Below are positions 6,498-64,000 of a stretch of 64,000 nucleotides of DNA, in pieces. The stretch is taken from the NCBI GenBank assembly GCA_023105745.1, contig JALGQZ010000001.1, positions 44,540,082-44,604,081 of the forward strand, written 5' to 3'. The position numbers were made by a program, and so were the translations under genes. The notes under the pieces are model-generated. The model searched no databases and had not been told where the DNA came from. It saw nothing but the letters and a program-made list of their open reading frames with translations. Every line of letters begins with the position of its first letter. The stretch's first letter is position 1. This DNA is from Austropuccinia psidii. Taxonomy: Eukaryota; Basidiomycota; Pucciniomycetes; Pucciniales; Sphaerophragmiaceae.

Positions 6498-6513
6498 TTT
6501 GGGGGCCTGGCCA
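6498..6513 (+). promoter_or_regulatory. Putative primer-binding site of Element I
   Basis: Directly after the LTR end lies TTTGGGGGCCTGGCC. The same position in Element V (62078) has TTTGGGGTCCTGGCC. A TGG shortly after the 5' LTR is usual for a tRNA 3'-end primer site. The tRNA was not identified. Confidence 0.55.
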
Positions 6514-7064
6514 TGATTTTAACAAATATTTGGGACATAAATCACATTTTAGACCTTATTTTATTGTTTTTTGACGTAAAATTGCCATATTTACTTGAAT
6601 ATTGGCATTTTTGGGACTTGTCCCTTATACATAATCTTTATAATATTAATAAAGTTATTTTTTTCTTCAGAATACTGTTTCAAACAGTATACTATTGAGT
6701 GACTTAGAGTAAATTTCTTTTGTCTAACCAGTGGCGTTTTCACATCACAGACTTTAAATTTATTCTTTGAGGTATTCTAGTATAAAGTGAATAATAATAC
6801 AATTTTGATTAATAACTTATTAATTGAATAAATATTGTTTCTTCAAAGAAAATATAAAATCAAATTAAAAATTTAAGAATTGAAAAAATTTACTCAAAAC
6901 ATTTTTTCTTTAATCTTAGAAGTTTTTCTTTATTTTTTTGATGTAATTTGCCATAAATTACATTAAGACAACTTTGTCCAATAAGTTGAGTTTATAAGTT
7001 ATTTTTATTATTTAAAATAACTTATATTTTTTTCTAGTGTAATCCGTCTGAGAAAGTTTTTCAG
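6514..7064 (+). other. Element I leader, AT-rich, no gene seen
   Basis: Untranslated leader between the primer site and the first coding similarity. It contains T-rich runs and a small inverted repeat GTCTGA/TCAGAC near 7047-7067. A pyrimidine-rich stretch ending in AG at 7063-7064 could be a splice acceptor for the exon that follows. Confidence 0.5.
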
Positions 7065-9143: not shown

Positions 9144-10853
9144 ATTAAAAAAGATGACACAAAAGAAACTAATGATGTCCCTGTACATGGAAGTGATTTT
9201 GAGCTTTCTGAAGAGGAGTAATTGCCAGATGAACTTAGTATAGAAAATATTAATGTTTCCTTTGAAGTCACAGAAGTGCATACTCACTTACCACAGTACA
9301 GTGATGAATGTATGGATCTCATACATGTGCAAGATGCTGAAATGCAGAAATCCAAACCAGCCAGAAGTAAAGGTCATACAGCTGGATCATCTTGTATCAC
9401 TAATATTGTGATAAACAACAGAGAAACCAAGATACATCTTGACTCAGGTGCTTTTTGTACTTTTTTTGGAAAGAATTGTCTTGACAAGATTCATAACAAT
9501 TGGCAAGACAATTTAATGCCAATTGAAGGTATAAAATTCAGCAGTGCCAGCCAAAATATGAACCCCTTGCGTATATTTGAAGCAGCAATGATATTCCCTC
9601 ATGCTACAGGAAGTATTAGATTAAAAGTTGAATTTGTTGTTATGAATAATTGTAATTCACAACACTTTATACTTGCAAAGGATTATCTCAAAAATTATGG
9701 TATTTATCTTAATAATCATAAAGACAGATATTTCACTATAGGGGAAAATAAAAGGCAAAAATTTGCTTTTCCTTCAAGAAGAAGAGAAATAACTGTCATT
9801 AGACAAGTAAAAAATGTTAATAAAGATAAATTTGTCTCAGATCAATTAATTGAAGCACAAATTAGTCCTGAATTAACACCAGAAATGAAGGAAGAACTTA
9901 TTGAAATCTTATTTCAAGACAGGGAAGCCTTTGCTTCTGATAATGAACCACTTAGGGATATCAAAGGCCATGAAGTGGAAATTATTCTTAATGTGGAAAT
10001 ACCTTACCCTCCACTTTTGAGAAGACCAGCTTACCCAGCTAGCCCTAGGGCCAGAGAAGCATTAGAAAGTCATATTAATGAACTAATGAAACTGGGAGTT
10101 CTTAGAAATGTTAGACACAATGAAGAAGTAGAAGTCACAACTCCTGTAATCATTACTTGGAATAATGATAAATCAAGGATGGTTGGTGATTTTAGAGCAC
10201 TGAATACCTAAACTATTCCATACAGGTATCCAATCCCTAGAATCCATGATAATTTAACCCAATTATCCAAAGCAAGAATTATTACCCCTATGGATGCTCT
10301 TAAAGGCTTCCATCAGAATGTTTTGACACCTCATGCTAGGGAATTATTGAGTATTATTTCTCATTGTGGTATTTATGAATACTTGAGGATGCCTTTTGAC
10401 ATTAAAAATGCACCCTCTCGCTATCAAAGAATGATGAATACCATTCCCCAACATGAATTATCAGAAGGATGGTTAATTATTTATATTTATGACATTATAA
10501 TTTGTTCAGAAACCTGGAAATTACATTTAGAGAGACTTTCAATAGTACTTAAGAAAATTCTTCAAGTGAACATGGAAATATCTCTTAAAAAATGTAATTC
10601 TGGGTTTCATGAGTTAAAAGCTCTAGGAAATGTAGTCTCAGGACTGAGCCTTGGTGTTGATAAAAACAAAGTGACTGCAGTTTTGTTGAAACAAATTCCC
10701 CAGAATAAGAAGAAAATGATGTCTTTCTTAGGGTTTTCCAGTTATTACAGGCAACACCTTAAAGATTTTACAAACCATGCCAGATCTTTGTACAGAATTT
10801 GTGATCAGAAAACTGTCTTTGAAATGACACAGGAGAGGATTAAAGCATATTAA
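9144..10853 (+). pseudogene. pol of Element I: protease and reverse transcriptase, broken
   Basis: It continues in the gag frame. The aspartic protease motif LDSGAFCT is near 9438-9461, so the catalytic Asp is kept. The RT begins near 10000 with RRPAYPASPRAREALE; the first catalytic Asp is kept in [10 protein letters not shown] (about 10290). The YxDD box reads Y-I-Y-D near 10480, so the first of the two catalytic aspartates is now Tyr. The thumb-region motif [10 protein letters not shown] is near 10725. Stops lie at 9219, 10209 and 10851. With the altered box and the stops this copy cannot encode a working RT. Confidence 0.9.
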
Positions 10854-12674
10854 AAGATCAGATATGCCTTGACCAATGCACCATTACTACTGATTCCAGA
10901 TTGGAAACTTCCTTTCAAGCTGTATATTGATGCATGTGGTGAGGGCCTAGGTGCAGCTCTGAATCAAGCTCAAACTGTCAATGACAAACCTTATGAAGTT
11001 CCAATTTGTTTTATTTCAAGACAAATCAAAGCTACTGAGGCCAGATATGGAGCCAGCCAAATGGAGTGCCTTTTCCTTGTTTGGGCTCTGGAGAAACCTC
11101 ATGATTATCTGGGTGGTAGTGTGTTTGAAGTGATTGCTGATTGTAATGCAGTAAGATCACTTCTTAACATGAAAACTCCAAACAGACACATGTTAAGATA
11201 GCAGATTTCTATACAGGAGTATAGAGGCAATATGACCATAGTACATAGATCTGGAAACATTCACAAGAATGCTGATGGCTTAACTAGATGGGAATTACCC
11301 AATACACCTGACAATCCTGCCTATGTTCCCATAGGTGTAAAACCTAAAATTCCAATGGAAGGAATTCACATCACAGATGTTGGAACAGAATTCTTTGAAG
11401 AAGTTAGAGAGAGCTATAAGCTGGATAAGAATTGTCATATTCTTACTTCTCTACTTGAAAAAGATTGCAAAGAGGCAGATTTGTCTAATTCTCTGGATGA
11501 TATTTGTAAAACATTTTATCACAATGGAAGATTCCATTTATTTGATGGTATCTTATATTATAGATCTAAACACACATTTGTCATGGTCCTGTGTAGTAGA
11601 ATGTTAATAACACAATACTGCTAGAATTCCATGATAACATTTATTCTGGACATCTGTCTGAAGACAAAACAATGGAAAGAATTAATACATATTCCTGGTG
11701 GCCATTTTGGAGAAAAGATGTCATCGAGTACTGTCACAGTTGTGATAGATGTCAGAAAGCCAATAAAGCTACTGGTAAAAGATTTGGTTTAATGATTAAT
11801 ATCCAATAATCAAGTACCCCATGGGCAGTGGTTCAGATGGACTGGGTAACTGCCTTACCACCTTGAGGTGATAAACGTTTCAATGCATTTCCTGTCATTG
11901 TAGATAGATATAGCAAAACACCAATCTTTTTACCATTTCATAAAGATGAAACAACTATGGATACAGCTCTTTTGATTTGGAATAGAGTCATATCCCATAC
12001 TGGTCTCTTCAAAAATATCATCATTGATCGAGACCCAAAAATTCACATCAGCCTTATGGACTAATTTACATAGGATTTTGGGTACAAAATCATCATTCTC
12101 AACAGTATACCATCCACAAACAGATGGGTTAGCAGAAAGAATGATACAAACCCTTGAGGACATGATCAGATGATTTTGTGCTTATGGCCTGCATTTTAAG
12201 AATTCTGATGGCTTTACCAATGATTGGTGTACTCTTATACCAGCATTGGAATTAGCCTACAAGACCTCCATCCATGCTTCAACAGGCAAAACTCCTGTAA
12301 TGTTGGAAAAAGGATGGAACCCTAAACTTCCAGTTGATACTTTGAAGAAAGATTTATTTGATATTCATCCAACTTCTCAAAGCTTTAAGTTATTGCTTGA
12401 TAAAGTGAGGAATCATGCAAATAAAAGCATTAAGGATGCCTTTGAATATGCTAAACAGAAATGGTATAAAAGTCATAAAACCCCAGAATTCAAAGTAGGG
12501 GACTTAATACTAGTTTTAACCTTGAAATTTAATAATATCAAAGGTCCAAAGAAATTGAAAGATTCCTTTTCAGGACCATTTATTATTAAAGCCCTTCATG
12601 GGGCAAATTCAGTACCAGGAGAACTTTCAGGGGAATTGGAAAAAAACATCCAACTTTTCCTATTAGTCTGGTAA
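10854..12674 (+). pseudogene. pol of Element I: RNase H and integrase, broken
   Basis: RNase H is recognisable from [14 protein letters not shown], the [11 protein letters not shown] helix and IADCNAV, so the D-E-D residues are present. The domain ends with NADGLTRWE near 11265-11290. An H2C2 zinc finger (H...H, CDRCQKAN) lies near 11630-11765 after a one-base loss around 11600. The integrase core DDE is recognisable ([31 protein letters not shown]) between about 11830 and 12150, but it has stops (for example TGA in the PP.GDK stretch) and frameshifts. The C-terminal part (ELAYKTSIHASTGKTP, later FKVGDLILV) is open from 12246. An RNase H end stop is at 11199. Confidence 0.88.
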
Positions 12675-12937
12675 AGCATTACACTTCAAGTGATAAGGAA
12701 TTATTTCCTTTGAGAAATGAAACACCCTTAGAAGTACCTCCACTTGCTCAGAGTGAAGAGAAAAAATTACTAAAAGTCTTGAAAGAAATAAAACTTAGCA
12801 GAAAAAATGAAAGGGAATACTTGGTCAGGTACAGAAATCCACAAGATGAAGATGAATGGATTGTAGCAGAAAATATATCTGATGCCCAAAAGTTTCTCAT
12901 AAAATTCAGACATGAGAGAAGACCAATTCCTCAATAA
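12630..12937 (+). pseudogene. Integrase tail with chromodomain, Element I
   Basis: After a frameshift near 12635 the tail continues with FPISLVKHYTSSDKELF, then a chromodomain-like segment: KVLKEIKLSRKNEREYLVRYRN followed by DEWIVAENI. Chromodomains on Gypsy integrases define chromoviruses and are thought to steer insertion toward methylated histones. The segment is open to the stop at 12935-12937, followed by a short spacer and the polypurine tract. Confidence 0.78.
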
Positions 12938-17361: not shown

Positions 17362-18258
17362 ATGTCAATTCAGTCACTCAGCCAAGAGGACGATCATGGT
17401 CGTAAAACTCCCGATTCTCTCTTTAGCATCGAGTCTTGGGAGATAGCCTCAGATAATCTATCACACCTTCTAGAAGATCGTATTGAAACCACTCCCAAGG
17501 AACCGCCAGCGAACCACCTTTTGGATCATCCAGCCGTGAAGCCGGCCTTTTATTTCGGCACCACCCTTTCAATCGTACCCGTTCTGCCCGTTCAAGGGCT
17601 TTATTATCTACCGAATTTGATTGATGATACCACAGAGCAGGAATGGATGACAGATTTGGCGTATTTGAATTGGTCCGACAATCCAGCCAACAATCAAATG
17701 ATGTTCTTTTCACGTCCAACTGTAACCCTAGCAAACGGCTCTCAAGAACCCATAGTGTCACATTCCTTCCTCAATTGGCCAACCTTCCTGATCGGCCTTA
17801 TCAATCGGCTTCCCGCACTTCTTCTTACTGCCAATCCTGAAAACTTGGGCGGCTTGAACGATTTGCTCATTGGACCTTCCAAATCAACTTTACCATGGCA
17901 GGCAATCATTAATCTATATCGCCCAGGAGAAGGAATTGAGCAACACGTCGATATGATCGACCGATTCGATGATGTCATCTTGGGTATTTCCCTAGGCTCT
18001 AATACTGCGATGAAATTCCAGCCCTTGGGCGAGAAAAACTTGAATACAAATCAAGAGCTATATTTAGAGCAACGCTCTGGCTATTTTCTTTCTCATGATG
18101 CTCGTTTCAATTGGACACATGGTATTGAACGAAACAAGGTTTACGATTTAGTGCATGATATTCCTAATAATGAAACAAGAACAATTAAACGAGCAAGGAC
18201 TCGAATAAGCATAACCATCAGAAGACTTAAACCAGAGGCAGATCTTTTGAAAAGTTGA
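17362..18258 (+). CDS. AlkB-like 2-oxoglutarate/Fe(II)-dependent dioxygenase
   Basis: This 298-residue, single-exon ORF looks like an intact host gene. Residues 180-290 carry the AlkB-type Fe(II)/2OG fold signature. N184-x-Y186 precedes G190-G191 and the H195-x-D197 iron pair in GIEQHVDMIDRF. The distal iron ligand is H253 in NWTHGIERN. The 2OG-binding R281-x5-R287 lies in RTRISITIRR. The first ~65 residues are acidic, Ser/Pro-rich and probably disordered. AlkB relatives demethylate nucleic acids or proteins by oxidation; the substrate cannot be told from sequence, and the motif style resembles ALKBH7/8-like fungal proteins more than bacterial AlkB. The start is supported by an in-frame TAA three codons upstream (17353-17355) and A at -3. 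Base composition is clearly more GC-rich than the surrounding transposons. Confidence 0.88.
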   Translation: MSIQSLSQEDDHGRKTPDSLFSIESWEIASDNLSHLLEDRIETTPKEPPANHLLDHPAVKPAFYFGTTLSIVPVLPVQGLYYLPNLIDDTTEQEWMTDLAYLNWSDNPANNQMMFFSRPTVTLANGSQEPIVSHSFLNWPTFLIGLINRLPALLLTANPENLGGLNDLLIGPSKSTLPWQAIINLYRPGEGIEQHVDMIDRFDDVILGISLGSNTAMKFQPLGEKNLNTNQELYLEQRSGYFLSHDARFNWTHGIERNKVYDLVHDIPNNETRTIKRARTRISITIRRLKPEADLLKS

Positions 18259-26876: not shown

Positions 26877-29800
26877 TTATTGAGAAATATTCAACCTTCT
26901 GTTGTGAATTACTGAAAGACATATGTCCTTCAATATTTCTCCAAAGATCTTGTTGTGTTGTTTTCTTTGTGTATTTCCTTTCCATTCAGAAACAAAACCT
27001 TTGACTTCATGAATAAACATGTACCCAAAATCACACCAGCAAAGAGTTCCTCCCAAGATTTCCAAACCATCTAGATTCAAATCTTCTTGAGCCCATAACA
27101 TTTTGTGATACAGTCCTTCTATTGTCATTTGATAATATCCATAAGGCTTCTTCCAGTAAGGATTTCTTAAATTTCCTTTGATTCCAATAGTGGTTAGTAA
27201 TTCCAGAAAATCAACATTTGTAAGATTTGATCCAGGTAGTTCTGAAATATATTTGGTTTGAATTATTGATGAATCTAGCTCATAATCATACAGTTCCTTA
27301 AATGTTATTATTGGAAGTATTATGTAATCTTCCAGTCCTTCATATTCTGGTATGTCTTCCTGTATGCCATTTTGATTCTGGGAGTCATTTGGTAATTCAG
27401 ATGTAATTCCTTTATTTTGATTAAATAGATCAGTTGCGCTTGAAAAGCAGAATATTTGATCATAGGCACGATTAAATTCTTCTAGAATGCTAAGTCCAGC
27501 TAGCCTTTGTGTATTTTCTGATAACTCTCCTTCTTCTAGATCTTCAAATATTCTTCCTTGCTTATATTTATCTTCCAAATCTTCATTATTTTGTTGGTAT
27601 AACTTCAAGTCATCTTCTGATTCTGCTGTTTCCATTTTTTTATCAATCCTCTTTTGAATATTTCTATCCCAAACTTGATCCATTTTGTCTTCAGTAATTA
27701 TGGCACTTTCCTTTTCCAATTCTTCAAATTTTCTTTTTGCCAATGGATTGATTATGTCATTTTTTATTTTTTCAGTATCACTAATGTACCAAGCTTTCTC
27801 CTGAAATAAATTTGAATAATCTTCTGCAATTCCTGAGGAATTTGCTTCAGGTGGCTTCAGATCCATTTTAAATTTCTTCTGTGGGCTTTCTACTTTATCT
27901 TCTTCATTCATACCACTTAGCTCAAGTGCTAGCCATTTCTCTGGGTCTTCTATGGCCATGTCCAAATTTCTTCTCATCTTCTTCAGTTCCATTTTTATTT
28001 TTTCTATTGCTTCACTATCTTCTTCCTTCAATTCATCCTCTTCTGGATCCTTCCCTTTAGATTTTGTTTCAGTTTGAGGTGGAATACTTTCTTTAGATGA
28101 AGATAATATGCTTGACTTTTCTTCATCTATTATCTGGTTGAAATTTTCAAATACTAAGAAGTCCAGGTAGGTTTTCTCTTCACTTTCAAAAGTGACTTCA
28201 AGATTTTTAATTTGACCAATTGGCTTCAAAAAGTTATCTGTTGATTTTGATGTGTAAGGGCTGATTTTTAATTCTGCTTTAAGGGCCATTTCCTGAGTTA
28301 TAACATTCAAGTCATTTTTTGCATCAAAAATAGCTGAGAAGGGTATTTTGTTTGCTCCAAGAAATATTGTCTTCACTATTGTTGAAGATTGACTTTCTGT
28401 TTCCTCGGTTTCTTTTCTTTTGGATGATTCTGCTCCATGTATTGACCATTTTCCGATCTCTGAAGATGCACAAAGCTCCATACCTCTTGGTGGAGAAATT
28501 TCCCAACCCATAGCTTGAGGGTTACATATTGGTAAGCATAATTGACGTCCATCTTTCTCTGGATAACTAAATATTTCCCCTTGCTTGTGTGAAAATTCCA
28601 ATTTAACATTATTATCTGCTAAAAATGGTTTTCCAAGTATGGTGTGTACAGCTCCTTTTTCTATGAATAAATGAATTTCTTTTTCTTCTCCTGTTATCAT
28701 AGTAATTGGTGTAAATTCTGAGAGTCCAACCAAGGATGTGGTATGTCCACCAATTCCTCTGAGATTCATATTGAGCTTTCTACTTGTAAGTGAGGCTTGA
28801 ATTGCAATTTCCTCTGGTATTATATTAATTTCTGATCCATTATCCACCAATGCCATTGTAGGATATTCTTCTCTTCCAATAAATACTTCCATAAATCCAA
28901 GTGGGCATGCATAATGTAATCTTGGGGTATCATAGTCCCGTAGCTTTACTGAAAGTAGTCTTTCTTGAATATTTGACGTATTGACTGATTTTATTGCTTC
29001 TTTTTCCTGGGTAGTTAAATTTTGTAGTTTATCAATAAAGGTTGGTGACATTGATAATATTTCTTCAAGAGTAAGATTTATCTTTTGTTCAAGTATTCTC
29101 TTCATCACATGTTCAATTATTATCTTTGGGTTATTGGGTGTAGTTTTTACCTTGTTTTTTAATTCCATCTTTTGTGAATCCTGTCTAAGTACCTCCTTAT
29201 TCTTTTCCTTGGAAATTATTTCAATATCATTATCTACTTCCTTTCCTTCTTGTGTTTTCTTGTATTTTGTTGGAATTAGAACTCTTATTTCTTCTTTGGC
29301 CTCATCTTCCTCATGGTAGGAACCTGGTATCTTCTTTTTAAAGGGTTTGTGTGTTTCATTTTTATCCTCTTGCTGGTTTGGGTTTTGATTTTCCTGTCTT
29401 GCAGCTCTTTGCCTTGTCTGTCTAAGCCCAACATTTATTTGAATATTTTCATTTGCTGGTGATATTTGAGGAGGTTTCCAGTTTCCCCATTCTTCTATTT
29501 GAGCTATAGCTGCTGCCTTCTCACCTTTACTTTCCTCAATTACTGTTGTTTCTTGCTTCTTTTGGGGTGGATTTGATTGTTCCATCATTTTCTTTGTAAA
29601 ATCCTCCTGCTCTTTGGCAAAATGTCTAAGAAATTCTTTTGCAGATTTAGGGCCTTCTGTGGGTACTCTTTGAAAATTGGGAAAAAGATATGTTCCTCCA
29701 CGCTTCAAGACAATTCTTTTCTCCAAGTCTTCTGTGAGGTGATTACATCTTATTGCAGAATGTCCTTCTTCTAAGCAGTAATAGCACTTCAGTAGCTGTC

Positions 29801-31349
29801 TTGGAGCCATTTGTGCTGGAACATATGGTTGATAACCAGAAGATATGGGTAGTAAAGGATATCCTGGCCTGAGTGGCTGTGAGTTTTGTGTAACTTTCTG
29901 ATCTTGATTATTGCCTGCTTGTATTTTATTTGGAGATTCAACTACTTCTGAAAGGTGTTTGAGCTGATTCAATACTTGCTTAACTGATTCCTTCCCAGTA
30001 TCCTTTGATTGATGCCCTTGCGGCTGAGGATTTTGAATTTTTTGGGTAAGATCTTTCCTTTGCTTTAAGACTTCTTCCCAGCTTTCCTCTTCAAACCTAG
30101 CTTTCTTCTCTTGTGACTTTGGTTGTGAAAATTCCTTCTGTTGAATTAAGACTTTGGCTTCTAAATCTTGTTCAATATATAACTTTAAGATTTCCAATCT
30201 TGGAATAATATAACCACCATCCAAAGCTTGCACCATGGCCTTATCTTTAATCATTTCTTTGTAAATAGACTCTTGAACACTTGAGGAAAGACTGGCCAAA
30301 ATTTCTTGATTGTGATTGATATCTCCTTGTATATATTGGTACCTTCTGAGATAATTAATAATGGATTCATATTCACCAATGAACTTTTTATATTGGGTCA
30401 TATTTCTAATTCCTCCTTCTTGTTGAATCTTTGTAAATAATTGAGTAATTGAGGACAGCTTGTATCTTCTTTCAGGTGACACTGTTCCCCATCTCCTCTT
30501 CATATCCAATTTTAATTGCTCCCAATCGCCAGTTTCATATCCAGGCATTCCTTCAATATGGTAGCTAATTTCTTGATCTTTAGTCCAAAAGGATATCTGT
30601 CTTGCTATATCCCTTCCACTTGCTCCTTCAATTTCTGCTATATTTTCTACTCTTTTAATAAATCTTTCCACTTCCTTTCCATCAAACCATAAATTATAAT
30701 CCTTTGGTCTGATCTTGACAATGGGTGTATTGTTTCGTGGGATTTCTTGTTGCAATGGGCTTGAAGCCTGTGCATGAATATTAACCCGCTTTGGTAGAGT
30801 ATTTGGTCTTTGTGAAGTGAATGGAGTTGATGAGGCCATAGGCCTTGAAAATGGTGATGGTGACCCTTCTTGTCTAAAGATTCTTGGCATGCTCGTAGTT
30901 TCTTCCATTGGGCTGTTTTCTGCGGTAAAACTTGACTCTTTCCTTTTCCCTTCTTTTTTAGAGAGTTCAATTAATTCTTGTTGCATTTCCAACATTCTTT
31001 GATGAAGTCTTTCTACATCAGAAATATCTTCTTGTCCTTGCATAGTCTCTTCATTTATTATTTCTTCTTTGGATTCATCTGGATTGTGTGGTATCTTTGA
31101 TGATGATGCTGAATCCATATTGATATATTCTTTGTTGATTTTCTCTTTTTCACTTTTCTTTTTAATTTCAAATATTTCCTTGAGTAATTTCTGAAAATAT
31201 TCTGTAACTATCTTTTGATCTTTCTTCTTAGTTCTTGGTGTACCAACTGGTATACTATAATCTATAGGTGATTCTTCTCCAGGTGGTGTTTCTCCTCTTT
31301 TTGGATAATAATAATGAAATGATTTTGTTGAAGCACTTGATGGTGACAA
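26877..31349 (-). CDS. Intact Gag-protease polyprotein of Element II, 1490 codons
   Basis: The ORF is uninterrupted. The N-terminal ~200 residues are charged and Ser/Pro-rich. A capsid-like helical region (about 210-400) contains YNLWFDGKEVERFI, GYETGDWEQLKLDMKRRWG and a YIIPRLEILKLYIEQ stretch. A CCHC knuckle, CYYCLEEGHSAIRC, is at about residues 522-536. An aspartic protease motif, ALVDNGSEINIIPEE, has its catalytic Asp at about 836; Asn replaces the usual Ser/Thr after Asp, a variant I associate with rust elements. A second retropepsin-like repeat has FDAKNDLNVITQE (Asp at about 1009). Then follow acidic and coiled segments and a ~130-residue aromatic C-terminal region I do not recognise. 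RT is absent. It presumably makes particles for a helper-dependent element. Confidence 0.85.
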   Translation of the reverse strand: MSPSSASTKSFHYYYPKRGETPPGEESPIDYSIPVGTPRTKKKDQKIVTEYFQKLLKEIFEIKKKSEKEKINKEYINMDSASSSKIPHNPDESKEEIINEETMQGQEDISDVERLHQRMLEMQQELIELSKKEGKRKESSFTAENSPMEETTSMPRIFRQEGSPSPFSRPMASSTPFTSQRPNTLPKRVNIHAQASSPLQQEIPRNNTPIVKIRPKDYNLWFDGKEVERFIKRVENIAEIEGASGRDIARQISFWTKDQEISYHIEGMPGYETGDWEQLKLDMKRRWGTVSPERRYKLSSITQLFTKIQQEGGIRNMTQYKKFIGEYESIINYLRRYQYIQGDINHNQEILASLSSSVQESIYKEMIKDKAMVQALDGGYIIPRLEILKLYIEQDLEAKVLIQQKEFSQPKSQEKKARFEEESWEEVLKQRKDLTQKIQNPQPQGHQSKDTGKESVKQVLNQLKHLSEVVESPNKIQAGNNQDQKVTQNSQPLRPGYPLLPISSGYQPYVPAQMAPRQLLKCYYCLEEGHSAIRCNHLTEDLEKRIVLKRGGTYLFPNFQRVPTEGPKSAKEFLRHFAKEQEDFTKKMMEQSNPPQKKQETTVIEESKGEKAAAIAQIEEWGNWKPPQISPANENIQINVGLRQTRQRAARQENQNPNQQEDKNETHKPFKKKIPGSYHEEDEAKEEIRVLIPTKYKKTQEGKEVDNDIEIISKEKNKEVLRQDSQKMELKNKVKTTPNNPKIIIEHVMKRILEQKINLTLEEILSMSPTFIDKLQNLTTQEKEAIKSVNTSNIQERLLSVKLRDYDTPRLHYACPLGFMEVFIGREEYPTMALVDNGSEINIIPEEIAIQASLTSRKLNMNLRGIGGHTTSLVGLSEFTPITMITGEEKEIHLFIEKGAVHTILGKPFLADNNVKLEFSHKQGEIFSYPEKDGRQLCLPICNPQAMGWEISPPRGMELCASSEIGKWSIHGAESSKRKETEETESQSSTIVKTIFLGANKIPFSAIFDAKNDLNVITQEMALKAELKISPYTSKSTDNFLKPIGQIKNLEVTFESEEKTYLDFLVFENFNQIIDEEKSSILSSSKESIPPQTETKSKGKDPEEDELKEEDSEAIEKIKMELKKMRRNLDMAIEDPEKWLALELSGMNEEDKVESPQKKFKMDLKPPEANSSGIAEDYSNLFQEKAWYISDTEKIKNDIINPLAKRKFEELEKESAIITEDKMDQVWDRNIQKRIDKKMETAESEDDLKLYQQNNEDLEDKYKQGRIFEDLEEGELSENTQRLAGLSILEEFNRAYDQIFCFSSATDLFNQNKGITSELPNDSQNQNGIQEDIPEYEGLEDYIILPIITFKELYDYELDSSIIQTKYISELPGSNLTNVDFLELLTTIGIKGNLRNPYWKKPYGYYQMTIEGLYHKMLWAQEDLNLDGLEILGGTLCWCDFGYMFIHEVKGFVSEWKGNTQRKQHNKIFGEILKDICLSVIHNRRLNISQ

Positions 31350-53437: not shown

Positions 53438-53917
53438 TCATTTATGAGACTGTTCAGTCCTCCTAGAGGCTCTGAATCTTCTTAAATGAAGGCTACAATC
53501 TGGTATGGCATCCTCTGCCAACCATTTGTCTTTATCAGCTGTTTTGTTCTTGAATCTGACTAAGTATTGTCTCTGATCCCTACCATTAAGCCTGATCTTC
53601 CTGGTCCTGATGATTTTATACGCTGGTCCAGGGGAGTCTTCCACCTCCAGTATTTCTGGTGGTGTGGTGTTCTTCTTCCTGGAGGGCAATTTACCCTCCT
53701 CTGTTTGGAAGTATGGTTTGACCAAACTCACTGGAAACACTGGGTGTTTCCTGGAGAACTCCTCTGTGAGTTTGAACTCCAATGCATTCTTCCCTATCAG
53801 ATTAATACTAGTAAAGGGCCCTACAAATGAGTCTCTCATCTTCTTAGGTCCTTTGAGATTACTATATCTTAGTGTAGACACCAGCACCTGGTCCCCTTCT
53901 TTGAAGTCAGGTTCCAT
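53438..53917 (-). pseudogene. Integrase tail with chromodomain, Element IV
   Basis: It opens with FKEGDQVLVSTLRYSNLKGP and MRDSFVGPF, then KHPVFPVSLVKPY. A chromodomain-like segment follows: IIRTRKIRLNGRDQRQYLVR, FKNKTADKDKWLAEDAI. It is the same layout as Element I and closely related in sequence. It lies in a different frame from the integrase core to its right (break near 53950). Confidence 0.85.
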
Positions 53918-53981
53918 GTGTGACTTGTCCCACCTCTGCTTATTATACTCCTTTGCCTCAGCTATGCATTTGGCAGCTGTG

Positions 53982-55142
53982 TCACAAGCCCTCTTTCACA
54001 TTTCGTGGAAGTCTTTGGCTGTGAAGTGGATTATTAGAAGATTTTTCTTCAAGTGTTCCACAGGTAAAAGGGGGTTTCCACCCTTTCTCTACCAGTGCAG
54101 GTGTTTTTCCTGTGGTAGAGTGCTGACTTTTATTACAAGACAGCTGGACTGCTGGTAGAAGGGTAACCCAGTCATGGGTGTATCCTTCATGGTCCTTGTA
54201 TTCCATGCCATAGGCACAGAACCTTCTGAGGATGTCCTCCATTGTCTGGATCATCCTTTCAGCTAGCCCATCTGTTTGTGGATGGTATGATGTGGAAAGT
54301 GCAAGCTTGGTCCCAAGCAGGTCATACAAGTTGTTCCAAAATTCAGATGTGAATTTTGGGTCCCTATCACTAATGATGATTTTAGGGACTCCACAGGTAG
54401 ATATGATGTTATTCCAGAATGACAGAGAAGTATCCATAGCTGTGTCCTCCTTATGGCATGGTAGACACCTCATACTCTTGCTGAACCTATCAACTATGAT
54501 TAAACAGGCATTGTAGTTTTCTTTGCCTCCTGGGACACGTCCTGTAACCCAGTCCATATTGATGGTTTCCCATGCGTGTTTGGGTTCTTCTATATGTTGA
54601 AGTAATCAATACTTCTTCCCATGTTTCCTATTTGCCTTCTGGCATATTTCACAAGTGTTGATGTATTCACTCAACTCTTGTTCCCACTTGGGCCACCAAG
54701 CTGTGCTTGCTACCCTCTCTTTGGTCCTGTCTTCGCTCATGTGTCCCATGTAGGGGCAGTCATGGCATTTTTGCAGGATCAGAGAGATGTGGTCCCTGTC
54801 TACAACTGTGAGTGCACTTGTGTGTTTTGCTCTGTGGTAGAGCAGGCCATCTATAAGGAATAACTTATTATCCTTAGAGGCCCTCAACCAGGGTTCTTCC
54901 AGCTGGGATTCCAGCTCTGGACTCTTGTACTTTTGTTGAAGGAGCTGCAGTAATATGCTACACTGTTGGTGTTTGGCATGAGACTTTAGTACTGCACTAA
55001 AGAATTTGTTGTGCAGTTCTGAGGAACTTCTTCCCAGTATGGGAGTTTCTGTCCATTCTGAATCAGTGTTTCCATTGTCCAGGGTACCACTTCCTGGTGC
55101 CCATTCAGAGAATCTGAAGCTCTTCTTCCTATCTATCTCCAT
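53982..55142 (-). pseudogene. Integrase core and H2C2 finger of Element IV
   Basis: The zinc finger reads QKCHDCPYMGHMSEDRTKE and CEICQKANRKH (about 54780-54610). The core reads [21 protein letters not shown] and [13 protein letters not shown], so all three acidic residues are present. One stop lies between finger and core (54605-54607). It overlaps the RNase H ORF by about 10 bp in another frame. The conserved antisense open frame 53610-54158 is a shadow of this region. Confidence 0.87.
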
Positions 55143-56605
55143 GAAATGGATAGGGGTCTTGGGTGAAACTTCAGGTTAATAAGCTGGGTTTCTTTTGACA
55201 TTATCCAATGGCCATCTGCTGAGGCCATCTTCATTGGTATGGCTTCTACCTTCTTTGTATATGATGGGATGGTCATGTTCCCTCTATACTCCTGGATGGC
55301 TATTTGCCATATCAGCATGTGTCTATTTGTAGTATCCATGTTTAGTAAAGACTTCAAGGCTGTGCAGTCTGTGTAGAATTCAAAGACTGCACCCTCCAAA
55401 TAATAATGGAGTTTCTCTAGAGCCCAGACTAGGCATAAGCATTCTGTCAGGGTGGCCCCATAGCTGGCTTCTCAATCTTTCAGCTGCCTAGAGATGTAAC
55501 ATATGACTCTCTCTCTTGGTTCACAATCCACAATTTGTCTCTGGTAAAGGGCTGCTCCTAAGCCTTGGCTACATGCTGCATCTATGTATAACTTGAAGGG
55601 TAGTTCAAAGTCAGCCAAGATGAGCACAGGTGCATTCGTGAGTTCATATTTGATCTCCTAATATGCATCCCTTCTTTCCTTGATGATTTCAAAGACTACA
55701 TCTTTTGAACATAACTTGTATAAGCTACAAGTTATGTGGTCAAATTTCTTGATGTGGTTTCTATAGTAGCTAGGAAATCCAAGGAAAGATTGCATCTCTT
55801 TGATGTTTCTTGGTACTGGCTTTTGTAGTACTGCTGCTACTTTATTCTGGTCAATTGTCAGATTAACACCTGAGACTTTATGTCCTAGAGCTAGTAGCTC
55901 TTGTTGGGCAAAATTACACTTTTTAAGTGAAATTTTCAGATTCATGGGTGTACATTTACTCAGGACTTTGTCTATGTATTGTACATGGTCTTCTCATGTC
56001 TCTAAGTATATAATGATATCATGAATATATACTACCATCCAGCCTTCCAGTATTTCTTCTTGAAATATTGTGTCCATCATCCTTTGGAAGTGGGCTGGTG
56101 CATTCTTGATGCCAAATGGCATCCTGGTGTACTCATATATACCCATAGGGAATATGATTCTGAGAAACTTTATGGAGTTTGGTTTGACTCCATTCTGGTG
56201 AAAGCCTTTCATACAATCCATTTTGGTTATTAATTTGGCTTTAGCCAGTTTGTCCAGGGCATGAGGTATCCTGGGTATAGGGTACCTGTCTGCTTGTGTG
56301 TAGTTGTTCAGGGCTCTGAAGTCTCCACACAACCTGGACTTGCCATCATGTCAGGTGATTAGGACAGGAGTGGTGATTTCCACTATTTTATTGTGTCCAA
56401 TATTTCTGATGACATCCATGTCCAGGAGTTCATTGATGTGTTTCTCAATTTTCTTCCTGGTTTCGAGACTTTCTGGGTATGGAGGCCTCCTGAGCATAGG
56501 TGGATATATTCTTTCCACATCCAGATATAGTTCTATATTATGGCCTTTAATTTTGCCTAGTGGTTCTTCACCAATGGCAAATGCTGGTCTATTTTTTCTC
56601 AGCAT
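55133..56605 (-). pseudogene. Reverse transcriptase and RNase H of Element IV
   Basis: One frame with several stops. The RT start reads RRPPYPESLETRKKIEKHIN (near 56500). KMDCMKGFHQNG keeps the first catalytic Asp (near 56225). The YxDD box reads Y-I-H-D near 56030, the same residue position that is lost in Element I, here Asp to His. The thumb motif [12 protein letters not shown] follows. RNase H has LYIDA (near 55585), ECLCLVWALEKLHYYLEG and FYTDCTALKSLLNMD, so the acidic residues are kept; a stop interrupts between them (near 55480). TAA/TGA interruptions also lie near 55660 and 55996. Confidence 0.88.
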
Positions 56606-56730
56606 TTTCAGTAAGCTTAGTTTTTGCTTAATGGTGAGGGTAGTGCTAAACTGGCCCTCTCTGAATTCTTCAGTAGCTATTCCAGTGGGTCATGGGCATA
56701 AAGTTGGTATATATCAAGTGAAAATTTCTT

Positions 56731-57520
56731 TTACTTGTTGGTACCAATTTTAATATGCCTGTTTTTACTGTTGTAAATATCAATGCCATAAATCCTCTGG
56801 TAATCTGTTCCCAATAGGAACCCATGGATGTGGGCATCATCAAGCACTACAAACTCTGGGTTGAGTCTGATGTTACCTTTCCTATGGGGTATAATTATCT
56901 CTTTGATAATTGTCCCAATGGAAGTCATCTTCCCTGATGCACTTTTAAAGTTCTTTGCCTTGGTGGGCAAGAGCTGTTTTTCCCAGTTTGGGAAGTGGTT
57001 GTCCAAATAATTTCTGGCCACTATGGCGCATTGTGCTCCACTATCAATGATCAATGGATACTGAGCATTGTCAATACAGAAAGTCATCTTTGTGGTTGTT
57101 CCATGTATATGCTCCATTCCTTTTGTTGGTGTGACTGGAAGTTTTTGTGCATCTTGTGTGTGTTTGAACAAGTTCTTGTTGGCAGTGTCCTGTGGCATGC
57201 CTGCTTCCAACTGTATGTCCTGGATTTCTAGTCGGGTTTCCTCTTGGTATTCCACTGGGAATTCTTCTCTGGGGTCTTGGTCATCATCAGATTGTTCCCT
57301 GGTGGCATCCTCCATAGAGTCTGATTCATGATCCTCTGTTGGGGATTCCTCCTCTGGGACTTTCTCAATGGCATAGACTTTTTTCTTTGCCTTTGGACAG
57401 TTGTTGGCATAGTGGTCTATTGGACCACAGTTGTGACAAGAATTTTTCTTCTTGTCCATCTGTGCCACTCTTTCTTTGGATTTGTATTTAAACTCTACCC
57501 TGAAAGGTTGTTTCTCTTTG
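56731..57520 (-). pseudogene. Protease and nucleocapsid of Element IV
   Basis: From the solo LTR insertion point the frame reads KEKQPFRVEFKYKSKERVAQ, then a CCHC knuckle SCHNCGPIDHYANNCPK (about 57437-57390) and an acidic linker. The protease has PLIIDSGAQCAIVARNYLD with the catalytic Asp kept (about 57048). The strand HIHGFLLGTDYQRIYGIDI is near 56800. The frame stops at 56731 and the RT continues in another frame. Confidence 0.85.
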
Positions 57521-57525
57521 AAACC

Positions 57526-59719
57526 TGTAAGGTTTGTCTATGAAACTCTTGATAATAGTAACAATATCAAGAGTACTATGACTGTCCTCAGTAGAAAAAT
57601 ATAATATAATGAAATATTATAACCACAAATTTAAATATAATTATTAAAAATAATTATATAAAAAAATAAATTTAATTATTATTATAATAATATAATAATA
57701 AAAAAAAATATAATAATTATAATAAATTATAATTATTCTATTATTGTTATAGTCACTGACAGTTATAACAATAAGAAGTGTAAAGCTCTTAATGAGACTA
57801 TTACACGTGGAAAATATAAATATTTAACCACTTATAAATAATATAAATATTATTTATAAAAAGAATTAAACACACACTGTGCAGAAATAATTCTTTATAG
57901 AATAAAATTCTATATAAAAAAAACTATTACTAGATAAAAAAATATATAGAACTTTTAGAGAAAACTTACTTATAAGATTTATTTAATACAACAAGTTATA
58001 AAACAACAGTTATTATATTAAATAATGATTATAAGTTAAAAACACGCCAAAAATCAATAAAATCAAAGATAAAACAACTTTTTATACTAAAATTTATGAT
58101 TAAAGAGTTTTTGAGAGGAATTTGTGGATTTTAAAAGATATTTAAGATGATAATTTTATATAATAAAATTTATTATAGATGATTACAACAATAATCTGAA
58201 TTCTATGACTTCAATTCTTTAATTTAATAAACAAAGAATAAAAATAACTTAAGAATTACTTTTAATAATAAGATTTTATATTTAATAAAATTTTACCTGT
58301 TTAAATTTCTAATATGATTGGATTGATTATGAATGATGGACAAAAACAGTGATGAAAAGACTCTTTTTATGTCTACAGAGCAGCTCTCATGATTCATAAT
58401 GGATGTAGAGGGCGTGCTCAGGTCAAAACTGAAAAACCATGCTTAAAAATTAAGTTCTTAACTTAAGGCAACTTATTTTTACTTCCAATTTAAAGTTATC
58501 AGTGTTATTCTTAACTCCAAGTAACTTTAATCCTCATTTAGTTTAATTATTTTAAGTTTTAATATAAAATAAGTTTATTTATATTAAAGTTCATCACATG
58601 AACAACATAAAATCAGAGTTTCAAGCAGAAATCTCTTAAACTGAATTTTTAATTAATTTTTAAAGAAATCATAATTTTCTTTAAGCTTAATTAAAAAAGT
58701 AATTTTCCAGGCTAATTACCCAGGAAACCTATTAATAAAAGATACTTAAAATTTAATTTATATATTGATAATATTAAATTCTAAGCTGTGTGAAATTTTC
58801 AAGCAAATCCATTAAGATTTGGATTTTTAATGAATTTTTGAAGTTATTACTATTTTTCCACGTAAAATAGCAATACACACAAAACCTTAAGTTTTGATAA
58901 GGTTTTGATGATTGAAACCTTAAAGTTTTAAGCTTATTTAAGCTTTTTAAGCTTGATTAAGCTTTGAAAGTTCTTAAAACCTTGATTCCAAGCCTGCTTA
59001 TTGGGATTTACCCTCTTGGCAGCTTGAAATTCCTGTCCAATTTAGGATAAAACCAGTTTAAACCTTAAGGTTGGATCAAAGTCTAATCTTAAAGTTTAAA
59101 TAAGGTTGAAAATCCTCCAATACAGGTGGACAACCTTAATTGAATCCTTGCAGATCCAAAAAGTTGGGTACCCCAGCTCTATTTGGTCTTTTTCCTTTGT
59201 CCCACCTTTTTGCGTGGATTTTGCCCTTTTATTTATTTAAAGCCATACTATGGCCTTAAACCCTTTTAAATTGAGCTCACGCAGGATTTACATTCTGTAT
59301 GGCAAATCCTTAGCCAATTCAGTAAATATACACCACACCTCAATTTTAACTAAAATTTTGGTAAAGTTGCATAAACCTTATGTAACTTTAAATTTAAGCT
59401 TAATTAAGCTTAAATTTAACAATTTTAAAAAAATGTTAAAAAGTTACATTAGTACTGTGAGATTCTTAAATCTTCTAATAACACAAGAAATAAGTGTTTT
59501 TGGGTATAACACCCTATGGGTGTACCCTAGGTTATTTTTGGTGTAGAATCCAAAAATGACATCATAATTATAACTTTGTTTATCCAAAAAAAAGTTATAC
59601 TTATTTTTTATTATTTTTTATTTTAAATTCAACTAAAAAGTCTGTTTAAGACAAATTTAATTGTTTATAAAATCATTTGTGGCCTTATGGGTATGTTAAA
59701 CATACCTCACAGGCTCACA
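57526..59719 (-). mobile_element. Solo type I LTR inserted in Element IV gag, TSD AAACC
   Basis: This 2194-bp LTR of the Element I family is in minus orientation, starting TGTAAGG and ending GGCTCACA on the plus strand. It is flanked by perfect AAACC copies (57521-57525 and 59720-59724). It splits the Gag frame of Element IV, which resumes cleanly on the other side (KRSGF before, KEKQPF after). It fixes the true ends of the type I LTR. Confidence 0.93.
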
Positions 59720-59724
59720 AAACC

Positions 59725-60159
59725 ACTGCGTTTATATGGGGTGAATTTCCCTACATTAGTCCTTTTCCTAACCTCTTGTAAGGTATTGCAAATTTCATCT
59801 AAAGTGTAATTGTGGTTAAATCTGCATTTTACTTCATGATCTAGTTCTCCTGGCATTTGTGTCAGAAGTTTTTGATTCCTCATTTGGGTGTTCATCTGAG
59901 GATCAATGGCTTTGAGTCTCATAGATTGTCTGAGACACCAATCATATGGATCTTTGTCCACAGAGTATTTGTCACTTTCAAATGACATGATTTTCTGCCA
60001 TATCCAAGTACCATTGCTGTAATTTTGGATAATTTGACTCTTCCACCATGGCCAGCTTCTTCTGCCATGGATTTCCTTCATTTCTGTGTACTATATACTA
60101 GCATGTCCTTTAAATGCTGTATTGAGTCTAGCAGTAATCCAGTAGTCTGGTATGCTTGG
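59725..60159 (-). pseudogene. gag capsid part of Element IV
   Basis: The minus strand reads PDYWITARLNTAFKG, a TAG at 60091-60093, then SWPWWKSQIIQNYSNGTW, DPYDWCLRQSMRLKAIDP and a VKCRFNHNYTLDEICNTLQE segment ending KFTPYKRSGF at the insertion. These are the capsid helices of this Gypsy lineage (compare WPWWKEEI in Element I). The N-terminal part is cut by Element V. Confidence 0.83.
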
Positions 60160-62077
60160 TGTGAGCCTTGAGGTTTATTTTACGTACCCAAATAGGCCAC
60201 AATTATCTTAAAAAGAAATTTTGAATTATGCACAACTCATAAGTCATGAATATATCCAAAATTCAAAATTTCAATTTCAGAAAAGATGAATAACTTTTTA
60301 TTGAGTAAGTAAATCCATGGATTTAAGACCAGATTTGGATTCTACACGAAAATTCACCTAGGGTAGCCCCATAGAGTGAATAAGCTCAATTTAAGTATTT
60401 GAGGTGGTAAAATGGAAAATAATTCAATACCACATCATTAATACCACATAAAAGATCCGCGAAAATTTTTGTTTTTCTTGATTTTAAGCCAAAATAATGG
60501 GAAAGTCAGAAATCCCATGTTACATATACACTAAGAATAGTGTTATGCATGTTTTGAGCACTTAATATCATGGTATTCTTAGATGGACTTTTGGTACACC
60601 CATAGTGGATATCTCACTTTAAGCTTAATTTTCTATTTTTACATGAAAAATAAGTAAGGGGGACAAAAGACATCAAAGAGAGCCAGGGTACCCAACTTCT
60701 GAGGCCCCAGAGGCGTGGATAGCTCCAGAGCATGGATCCATGGCTCATCTTGGCCCAATTGGTAAACTAAAACTCTTTGGGAACTTGGTTACCAAGTTAC
60801 ACCTACTGTAATCATAAGAAAATAGCAAATAACCTGCTATTTTGACGTGCCAAGGAGGTAATGAGCTACTTAGACTCCTGTAACCACGTCAATTCTTGAT
60901 GACTTTCCATGACTAGAGCCTAAAAGAGTAATTAAAACCCTTTTGGGACATATATTCATTGATTTACCTCATAGCAACCAGCAAAATACTGCTATTTGCA
61001 ATTCTACGTAGAAATGAGGTAAAAACTTCAAAAATTCATTCAAAATACAATTCTTAATGAATCTTTCTGAAGCTTTCAGGACTAATAGAGAACTGTATTA
61101 TCTATGGTACAACCAAAAAGAATTATGGTTTTACTAGTAAAATTAAAAGATTACTTACAGTCCATTTTTGGCCATTCTACGTGAAACACTGAATCTTCAA
61201 AAATTCACAGTAATTACAACCTGTGATGAAATTGGCAATAACATTGATAACTTTGAGAAATAAATGATTATTTTAGAATAAAAGAAGATTTACAGATGTT
61301 ACTCCTTTTATTCTTAACCATATTGGGGTTGGTAGTCACGTAAAAGCATCAATTAAGTAATTATGATAATCTTACGTGACAACTGATGATGCAATCAATA
61401 ATCCAAAAGGGTTTATTGTTTTCTCACTCACTGGTTTTTCAGTTTGCTCCATGGCACGCCTCTGTGAGCTGTTATTGACTTAAAAGAGGCCTCCTCTTGC
61501 TGTTTTTTCCAGGAATCATCTTATCAATTTATTAAATCATTATTACCAACAAGTAAGTATTAGTTACAGCTATTCTTAAGTGTTTTAAATCTTTCAGAAT
61601 CAATCAGAAAGACGTGAAATCATAGAATCCAACTATATATTGTTGTAATCCTGCTATAAATCATTTTGATCTCTTAAATCCACAATTCTACGTCAAATTT
61701 CTCTACTTTTATCTATCAATAAGTTCTTTGGAGTATTAGTGAGTCATTTATCTTTAATTCTTAAAGTTTTTCTCTAGTAATAGTTTTCTTCAAGAATTAT
61801 CTTTATAACTATTCTTGTAAAAGATAATTATATATTAAAATAATTTTATTATTTTAATAAAAGAAGTTTTTATTATTAAATTCTTCTTGTAATTGATTCT
61901 TGTAGACAATTACTTCTCACAGTTATAATCACTAGTAGTGTATAACACGTGAAAGAAATAATTTTATAATTATTTAATTGTGGTTATAATAATTTTTATT
62001 ATTATATTTCATAAGAACAGACATAGTACTGTTGATTAATAGTAATATTATCATCAGTTTCATAGTCACATCTTACA
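60160..62077 (+). repeat. 5' LTR of Element V (type V LTR)
   Basis: This 1918-bp LTR begins TGTGAGCCTTGAGG and ends ATCTTACA. It is related to type I and VI LTRs by its ends and by the TTTCATAG segment before the end, but much diverged in the middle. The inverted fragment at 15241-15760 is the same family. Confidence 0.88.
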
Positions 62078-62095
62078 TTTGGGGTCCTGGCCGTG
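62078..62095 (+). promoter_or_regulatory. Putative primer-binding site of Element V
   Basis: TTTGGGGTCCTGGCCGTG directly after the LTR; compare TTTGGGGGCCTGGCCATG in Element I. Confidence 0.55.
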
Positions 62096-62519
62096 TTTTT
62101 TTGAACCTTGTACCCTTAATTAATATATTTTTAAGTTCTAAAATATATTAATTTAATTTTTTTTTTCAATTTAAAGAAATTTTTTTTTTTTGAAATTGTC
62201 TTTAAATCTTATTTCATTGAGGAATTTGGTTTAATTTTGCACTGTTTTTACGCGTGGCTTTTTCACATCCAAAAACTTATAAAATTATTCTTTGAGTTAC
62301 TCTGACTTAATTTTTTATTCAAATTCTTAAATTTTAATACCTTTTTCTTTGAAAAGAATATTTTTTTAATATCAAAAAATAATAAAACTTATAAAAAATC
62401 TTTTAAAAATATCTTAAATCATAAAAAATAATTTCTTTTATCATATTTTTTCTTTAAGTGTCTTTAATTAAATACTGTGCACCTGGAAACAGACTCATAA
62501 AAGATACATCACTAGTCCT
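62096..62519 (+). other. Leader of Element V
   Basis: AT-rich leader with T runs and no recognisable gene. An AG at 62514-62515 after ACATCACT could be an acceptor for the exon that follows, in which case the true first exon is further upstream. Confidence 0.45.
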
Positions 62520-63470
62520 GAATCTTCAGAAGCAGAATCTGAAGAAAGTATTGAGGTGAAAATTGCTAAAAGAGGCACCTTATTTAACTCAGAAAAGAAT
62601 AAATTACCACCAAAAGGTGTGTTTTTATCTTTATTTTTACTCTTTATCCTTAAATTGACGTAAAAATGGTGCATACCAGAAATGGAAGCAACTATTCAGT
62701 CCAACCAGATGGATGTGGACAAGGAAGAGGCAAGACCAAATCCAGAAGTGCCAAATCTTCCACAAGAAAGACACATCTGGAGGATGCCAGAGTTGCCCCC
62801 CATTCCCCAAGGTCTGTACCAACAGATTTTGACGTGAATTCTGAGCCTGAACTAATTCATGATATTATTTCCAGGGCTGAACCATTTCCAAGTGGCAGCA
62901 ATAGAAATATATCAATGCCAGTACAAAAATTGGTTCAGAGCAGCCAAGGAAGAAGAGTGGGAAATATGCCCAAGCCTTTGGCAGGGGGCCATGAACTCCT
63001 ACTTACACATCAAGAGCTTTCTGGGTCAGGAGAAGACCATAGAACTCTTAGGAGGTTGGAGCCCCCTGTCTTGCAAAGACAAGGTCAAAAGGATAAAGAA
63101 TTGGTTGAAGAACCAAAGTCTTTTATCCATAGACCAGAAGAAAGAGTTGGAAATGACTCCAGCTTTGGAGACAGAGGCACCAGTGGCGTCTACCAGCTCC
63201 AAACCAGCTCCAGAAGTGTCCAAGGACAAGCCCAAGGGACCTCAGAAGAGGCAGAAAGGTCCCAAGAACCATCAAGGAAAGGGCAAAGGCAAAGCCAATT
63301 GGCACAGACCTTACCCACAAGGGTACAGGATCCCCAAATTGGAGCCTTCAGCCATGGACAGTGTCTTCAATATGGCCAGGACTCTGATGGAATTTACAGC
63401 CAAACAGCAGGAAAGGATGAACAGAAACTTTCCACGGAAACAATTGGTGTACAGACTAGTATTAATGTAG
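62520..63470 (+). CDS. Spliced +1-frame ORF of Element V, overlapping gag
   Basis: I infer exons about 62520-62616, 62680-62811 and 62875-63470. The introns are 62617-62679 (GTGTGT...CCAG, 63 nt) and 62812-62874 (GTCTGT...TTCCAG, 63 nt), both phase 1. From the ATG at 62682 in exon 2 the joined frame is 242 codons including the stop. Exon 1 has no ATG, so a start upstream or at 62682 is open. The product has HIWRMPELPPIPQG at the exon 2 end, then IEIYQCQYKNWF, EEWEICPSLWQG, EKTIELLGG and WLKNQSLLS, a likely folded helical domain. A Lys/Pro-rich basic tail and VFNMARTLMEFTAKQQERMN follow. No domain is recognised. The same exons, intron positions and phases occur in Element I. Intron 1 holds the Gag ATG. 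Confidence 0.62.
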
Positions 63471-64000
63471 AAATTGGTAAACTTGATGGAAGATTAACCA
63501 AAATTGCATCAGATATAGTTGAATTAAAGAAAAATGACAAGAAATACATTGAATTGCACCAAGTGACAAATGCCAAACTTGACTCAATTACCAATTCTTG
63601 CAAAAGAATTGAAAACATGTACCAAGATCAGCATGATGAGATGGAAGATCTTTCCATTTTTAGGGTGAATGATCAACTTACAACTCTACAAGACCAAGTC
63701 TTGAAGATAGTTGAGAATACCAATCAATTTGCTATACCCTTAGCAAAAAGTGACAGTGAAAGACAGAAGTTGAAGAATGAAATAATTGCAAGTGTGGAAC
63801 AAATTCATAAGAATCATGAACCACATATGCCAAGACATTTTACACCTTTAACTGAAGAAAAACTCTCTGTTAAAGAAAGTCTCACCCCATTCTTAGCAGA
63901 AAATGCCTACTCTGCAAGAGATATTCCCAAAATAGAAGAATGGCCAACATTCTCTGGTGAAGGAGAATACAACCATATTGAATTCATCAGGACTATTGAT
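62666..64000 (+). CDS. gag of Element V, 3' end beyond window
   Basis: Open for 445 codons from ATG 62666 to the last base. It begins MVHTRNGSNYSVQ; the first ~250 residues are hydrophilic, Gln/Ser/Arg-rich and overlap the +1-frame ORF. From about residue 265 it is helical and probably coiled coil (INVEIGKLDGRL, then SDIVELKKNDKKY and DLSIFRVNDQLTTLQDQVLK). It then reaches the conserved start of the capsid part (DIPKIEEWPTFSGEGEYNHI, just before the window end), which matches Element I near 8480. Capsid, zinc knuckle and pol lie beyond the window. The ATG is inside intron 1 of the spliced ORF, so only unspliced RNA would make Gag. Confidence 0.82.
   Translation, partial: MVHTRNGSNYSVQPDGCGQGRGKTKSRSAKSSTRKTHLEDARVAPHSPRSVPTDFDVNSEPELIHDIISRAEPFPSGSNRNISMPVQKLVQSSQGRRVGNMPKPLAGGHELLLTHQELSGSGEDHRTLRRLEPPVLQRQGQKDKELVEEPKSFIHRPEERVGNDSSFGDRGTSGVYQLQTSSRSVQGQAQGTSEEAERSQEPSRKGQRQSQLAQTLPTRVQDPQIGAFSHGQCLQYGQDSDGIYSQTAGKDEQKLSTETIGVQTSINVEIGKLDGRLTKIASDIVELKKNDKKYIELHQVTNAKLDSITNSCKRIENMYQDQHDEMEDLSIFRVNDQLTTLQDQVLKIVENTNQFAIPLAKSDSERQKLKNEIIASVEQIHKNHEPHMPRHFTPLTEEKLSVKESLTPFLAENAYSARDIPKIEEWPTFSGEGEYNHIEFIRTID

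Follow-up and report, generated by a model that had tools for sequence, protein, structure and literature searches.

Does the LTR retrotransposon at this locus of the rust fungus Austropuccinia psidii use splicing to make a second protein from within its own Gag gene? A sequence-only reading of the window (the whole 64,000-nt stretch of DNA analysed here) had proposed that the +1 frame relative to Gag is open in three blocks separated by two short introns, and that splicing would switch the transcript from Gag-Pol to a second protein, here called X. Our best overall explanation, start and role of X included, is that splicing at two introns removes the Gag start and joins the exons of a conserved protein X; we regard this as quite probable.

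The element and its genomic copies

We found that the element is an LTR retrotransposon of A. psidii with pol in Gypsy order and thousands of genomic copies. Its main landmarks in the window are as follows.

60160 to 62077, + strand: 5′ LTR, about 1.9 kb, limits set by homology to the LTR pairs of two other copies
62078 to 62092, + strand: primer-binding-site-like stretch, recognized by sequence and by its position directly 3′ of the LTR
62666 to 64000, + strand: Gag ORF, running beyond the window end

LTR pairs were present in two of three copies tested, with identities of 95% and 98/96.5%. A domain search downstream of the window gave matches above the cut-off for RT_RNaseH, Integrase_H2C2 and rve and a weak RT match (18.2 bits vs a cut-off of 29.6); the RT match of a copy from a second family, family II, was above the cut-off. 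The order RT, RNase H, integrase is that of Ty3/Gypsy LTR retrotransposons. The window's own copy is decayed, since its Gag-Pol frame has stops at 65015 and 65804 and no 3′ LTR was found in the 6.6 kb fetched.

Other features lie elsewhere in the window. Remnants of another Gypsy-like element occupy 53438-60081 on the minus strand, with the last listed ORF stopping just before the LTR at 60160. Read by eye, a 1490-codon ORF at 26877-31349 (minus strand) is probably the gag-protease of another retrotransposon, and a 298-aa ORF at 17362-18258 (plus strand) has the look of an AlkB-type dioxygenase.

Two probable introns and a second reading frame in the 5′ region of Gag

Both 63-nt GT-AG intervals were confirmed, as was the position of the Gag ATG (62666) inside the first of them. 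The spliced second frame likewise stood; its limits had to be moved, because the upstream coding block starts at 62459 and not at 62520, and X normally stops at 63441-63443 and not at 63470. The window copy reads CAA at this stop, which is in place in 19 of 20 copies.

62459 to 62616, + strand: exon 1 of X, X frame uninterrupted in 37 of 37 copies, with a weak codon-position bias; one base short in the window copy
62617 to 62679, + strand: intron 1, 63 nt, GT...AG, containing the Gag ATG; precisely lost in 8 genomic copies, and in L039 with one more base
62680 to 62811, + strand: exon 2 of X, with an in-frame ATG at 62682
62812 to 62874, + strand: intron 2, 63 nt, GT...AG; precisely lost in 11 genomic copies
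62875 to 63470, + strand: exon 3 of X; the window copy has lost the stop normally found at 63441-63443

The splice sites are mostly kept in other copies, in line with the sequence-only reading. Among the 20 nearest copies, both GT and AG were kept in 19 of 20 for each intron, and in a further 20 copies from chromosome C1 they were kept in 19 of 20 for intron 1 and in 18 of the 19 readable for intron 2. The +1 frame itself is open in most copies but not in all: exons 2 and 3 of X are stop-free in 12/20 of the first copies and 18/20 of the further copies, compared with 12/20 and 11/20 for the overlapping part of Gag, and in 3 of those further copies a gap shifts the reading frame within X. Stops in X and Gag are as expected for decaying insertions.

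Exon 1 also looks coding in the X frame. The base at 62497 that is absent from the window copy is present in 20 of 20 copies, and the exon 1 peptide is alike in all 37 copies read, the start of L048 excepted. Across 70 copies, exon 1 variants show a weak bias: those common to at least 3 copies fall 3, 6 and 14 times on codon positions 1, 2 and 3 (p 0.006), and all variants together 25, 30 and 34 times (p 0.19). Indels in these 70 copies consist of a common 15-nt deletion in seven and single gaps of 1-2 nt in four. Gene models of A. psidii MF-1 join exon 2 to exon 3 in both families, and two family II models also join exon 1 to exon 2.

Genomic copies that have precisely lost the introns

Reverse-transcribed spliced RNA should leave copies without exactly these intervals, so we searched the 1.015-Gb assembly genome-wide for the joined exon ends, allowing up to 2 mismatches. 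Junction 1 was found at 8 places and junction 2 at 12, giving 14 distinct places, while genome-wide searches with reversed junction patterns and with a decoy that joined the flanks of a different 63-nt GT-AG interval each gave 0 places. Intact boundaries were found at 6,474 and 5,578 places under the same mismatch limit. Base-by-base alignment showed precise intron loss in 13 of the 14 places: both introns are missing from 7, only intron 1 from 2 (L043 and L048), and only intron 2 from 4. One of the 7 copies without both introns, L039, lacks one further base at junction 1. Where intron 1 is missing, the Gag start is gone with it.

The remaining place, L030 (G000:C2:70084878), was dropped as a junction 2 locus. 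It keeps intron 2 in a rearranged form, the 3′ end of which reads like the end of exon 2 and mimics a spliced junction; L030 is perhaps a recombinant of spliced and unspliced copies.

Upstream LTR sequence and downstream Gag up to 64000 are retained at 11 of the 12 junction 2 loci, and L038 aligns only partially. On a tree of 53 rows, which is unrooted, made by a quick method and sampled with a bias to near relatives of the window copy, the state of intron 1 changes at least 6 times and that of intron 2 at least 5 times. We regard these precise losses as strong indirect evidence for splicing in vivo; two small introns in the 5′ region of Gag are probably removed from the element RNA. Within intron 2 (62814-62872) we also observed 1 variant common to at least 3 copies vs about 10 expected; this low count may be due to sampling, as 7 of 59 columns have such a variant in a sample of 20 other copies.

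Selection acts on the frame of X

The sequence-only reading had pointed to a comparison of the two frames across copies as informative, and within the overlap this comparison assigns selection to the +1 frame rather than to Gag. Among 51 copies and the window, exon 3 sites at which a second base is found in at least 3 sequences number 10, 9 and 48 at X codon positions 1, 2 and 3 (binomial p 2e-10). Selection on Gag would not give this pattern, since X position 3 coincides with Gag position 1. We then compared observed and expected changes, with the window as reference and variants in at least 3 of 50 copies. The selection counts exclude L038 and L048, whose divergence is too high, and the 50-copy count also excludes L030. 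Because the copies are related and a single mutation spectrum gives the expectation, these counts are not independent and do not amount to exact tests. In the X frame we observed 20 replacements vs 70.7 expected (0.28), 47 synonymous changes vs 27.8 expected (1.69; N/S about 0.17) and 0 stops vs 6.5 expected. In the Gag frame the same exon has 57 replacements vs 71.8 expected (0.79), 10 synonymous changes vs 27.2 expected (0.37) and 0 stops vs 6.0 expected. In 20 other copies X has 12 replacements vs 59.1 expected and 35 synonymous changes vs 23.5, and the Gag frame has 39 vs 59.0 and 8 vs 23.8. Downstream of X the Gag frame shows constraint of its own (64 synonymous changes vs 22.3 expected, 106 replacements vs 66.6). 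Variants found in single copies are biased less than shared ones, which we read as decay after insertion. Overall, the sequence constraint lies on X, and the overlapping part of Gag seems to need only to stay open; the N-terminal part of the Gag ORF is shaped by the selection on another gene.

In exon 3 the Gag frame shows no constraint on its amino acids, which would also fit an N-terminal Gag frame that is untranslated, held open only through the constraint on X, with Gag starting further downstream. We consider this doubtful, as shared Gag-frame stops number 0 vs 6.0 and 0 vs 4.9 expected, stops among changes that are synonymous in X number 0 vs 3.7 and 0 vs 3.5, and the Gag ATG is kept in 20/20 and 20/20 copies of the two family I samples and in 9/9 family II copies, behind a leader free of ATGs. 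Far less probable is that the intron-less copies arose as DNA deletions or recombinants and that X is not made from spliced RNA. L030 is indeed a rearranged copy, and the copies in which only intron 2 is gone preserve the Gag frame and may descend from a single amplified lineage; however, the ends are precise at two GT-AG intervals in three combinations, the intron states change several times on the tree, the decoy gave 0 places, and it is the X frame that is under selection. Splicing at introns 1 and 2, with X as a translated and selected product, remains the reading that we prefer.

The same arrangement in a second family

Family II, for which 4,118 candidates came up at first inspection, includes an older element of the window, at about 6435-12700. 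All 9 copies read have introns 1 (62 nt) and 2 (69 nt) at the same places and in phase 1, and the Gag ATG lies inside intron 1; for each intron, 8 of the 9 copies retain the GT. The part of X exon 3 that was checked is stop-free in 4 of 9 and the Gag part in 2 of 9. The codon matching the ATG at 62682 is Val in all 9 copies, although a single gene model of the family, P0244, reads Met at this place.

Among the 9 family II copies themselves no codon-position bias was seen (43, 46 and 49), which we read as decay. Between the families, comparing 4 by 4 copies, identity is 0.39-0.65 in X and 0.22-0.41 in the Gag frame, the low values belonging to L115 and L119 and probably reflecting frameshifts. 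Most differences fall on X position 3, and identity is higher in X than in the Gag frame, in 16 of 16 pairs.

Where X may start

The sequence-only reading had envisaged an upstream exon carrying an ATG, and a candidate can be proposed: the LTR ATG at 61451, which would be joined in frame to exon 1 across a putative 995-nt intron.

61451 to 61463, + strand: putative exon 0 of X, the LTR ATG plus 10 nt, followed by the donor GTGAGC; ATG in 32 of 34 copies, GT in 33 of 34
61451 to 61483, + strand: 10-codon uORF of the unspliced RNA, presumably translated; stop in place in 31 of 34 copies
61464 to 62458, + strand: putative intron 0, 995 nt, donor kept, acceptor AG|TG in 70 of 70 copies, phase fitting; holds the LTR end and the primer-binding site
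61454 to 62665, + strand: ATG-free leader of the unspliced RNA, 0 ATGs vs 14.3 (sd 3.7) expected, a stretch picked after inspection

The ATG at 61451 is the last one ahead of the ATG-free leader, and a donor follows after 13 nt in the right phase. At the other end, exon 1 opens directly after an AG that is kept in 70 of 70 copies. A start of X at 61451 via exon 0 is likely on these grounds, and less certain than introns 1 and 2. The genome-wide search for junction 0 (61463/62459) gave 0 matches. This is expected if RNA spliced there is without a primer site, but it also fits a missing intron 0 and proves nothing. The intron-less copies suggest that reverse transcription sometimes acts on RNAs that have been spliced at introns 1 and 2 but retain intron 0.

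The absence of junction 0 fits two other starts as well, both of them without intron 0. X could begin at the exon 2 ATG (62682), with exon 1 serving as leader only. Once intron 1 is spliced out, the Gag ATG is gone and 62682 becomes the first ATG of a message that has no ATG between 61454 and 62665; the ATG is present in 19/20 and 20/20 family I copies, and many MF-1 gene models begin there. Exon 1 looks coding in the X frame, however, and family II has Val at this codon in the 9 copies read (P0244 with its Met notwithstanding), and because of this Val we demote the 62682 start to an unlikely one. Somewhat less likely still is a start at a non-AUG codon of exon 1, in an RNA from which the leader is not removed. 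Such a start would fit an exon 1 that is open but lacks an in-frame ATG in 36 of the 37 copies read (L079 has one). Against it, the AG at which the open frame begins is conserved in 70 of 70 copies, and the ATG and donor in the LTR are likewise conserved and in the right phase. We retain the LTR ATG as the preferred start.

The leaders of other copies are less strict. Among 39 other intron-bearing copies, the part of the leader that was read has no ATG in 9 and 1-6 ATGs in the rest; the leader of a family II copy has 3 vs 18.2 expected. In many fetched copies that are otherwise poor in ATGs, a leader ATG recurs about 447-450 nt before the point matching window position 62700, perhaps through a recurrent C-to-T change in an ACG.

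With this anatomy, splicing would switch the transcript from Gag to X. On the unspliced RNA, the ATG at 61451 would open the 10-codon uORF, after which ribosomes would scan through the ATG-free leader or reinitiate at the Gag ATG (62666) and go on to Pol; the same RNA would also serve as genome. The spliced RNA would be the messenger of X, with the uORF stop, the primer site and the Gag start removed.

Relatives, composition and possible role of X

Of 946 candidate relatives of X, 888 reached E 1e-3 or better; the 120 best, which are those listed, are without exception annotated as "hypothetical proteins" of A. psidii MF-1. A profile search gave 1,457 of 3,554 candidates, with the 120 listed all from A. 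psidii, and for the family II protein 119 of the best 120 listed are from A. psidii. Members of the X family in other rusts are possible, as these lists hold only the best matches.

X had been said to match no known domain, and searches of Pfam and PDB agree, with chance-level matches only. An AlphaFold2 model from 61 sequences was poor (mean pLDDT 54.8). X has about 290 codons; in this low-confidence model and from the composition of one sequence, exon 2 encodes an acidic stretch (pI 4.4), and the rest consists of a helix-rich middle part, a linker that is basic (computed pI 9.9) and a helix at the C terminus. By analogy with CERV and Rev and from this composition, our best guess is that X most likely regulates the unspliced RNA, as an RNA-binding or a nuclear protein.

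Relation to known systems

Retroviruses make accessory proteins from spliced RNAs, and spliced accessory genes are also known from Cer1 and a few plant and insect elements. The proposed retrovirus-like division between genomic and spliced RNA would follow from the anatomy of the element; nearer precedents than retroviruses are CERV of Cer1 and ORF IV of RTBV. As described in the parts of PMC10309623 on this system, CERV of Cer1, a Gypsy/Ty3 element of C. elegans, is made from spliced RNA and needed for export of the unspliced RNA, which makes Gag-Pol, as is proposed for the element of X. CERV is a regulatory protein, as X would be, and resembles X in using several exons of a spliced Gypsy RNA and a frame other than Gag, but its exons 1-3 are in frame with Gag and its unique part lies near the 3′ end (same parts of PMC10309623). 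X, in contrast, lies wholly in the 5′ region of Gag in the +1 frame, and the likeness seen here is one of layout. In the plant pararetrovirus RTBV, according to the relevant sections of PMC5902531, splicing fuses a leader uORF to the distant ORF IV, as proposed here for X; ORF IV is far downstream, whereas the exons of X overlap Gag. The pages of PMC3735527 on BARE1 of barley describe a small intron in the gag region (104 nt) and a spliced RNA with a different protein output, as is likely for the element of X, but BARE1 belongs to the Copia superfamily and its spliced RNA makes Gag only. DNA copies of spliced BARE1 RNA reportedly cannot be amplified, whereas such copies exist here. The same pages list Ogre, CRR, Bagy2 and copia as elements with spliced RNAs, in other genes and places, and describe no gene overlapping gag.

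Among the papers listed in our searches of the open-access literature, none was on a spliced accessory gene in a fungal Gypsy element, and two rust-genome papers contain no mention of gag, introns or a polyprotein (PMC8063080) or of gag, splicing or introns (PMC12210899). Each ingredient has a precedent, and the combination in a fungal Gypsy element, overlapping Gag, was not found in that literature.

A bolder picture, to which we give a little less than an even chance, is that one LTR ATG has two fates, opening a uORF that prepares initiation at Gag behind the 1.2-kb ATG-free leader, or serving as the triply spliced start of an overprinted regulator, so that each RNA would be committed to replication and Gag or else to the regulator; X would then be the fungal counterpart of Rev and CERV and would have aided the spread to thousands of copies. 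For the annotation of rust transposons, where the best 120 listed relatives of X stand as "hypothetical proteins" of A. psidii MF-1, a Gag N terminus shaped by selection on another gene is a caution. With a gene overprinted on Gag, thousands of copies and DNA copies lacking the introns, both splicing and selection can be read in this element from the genome alone.
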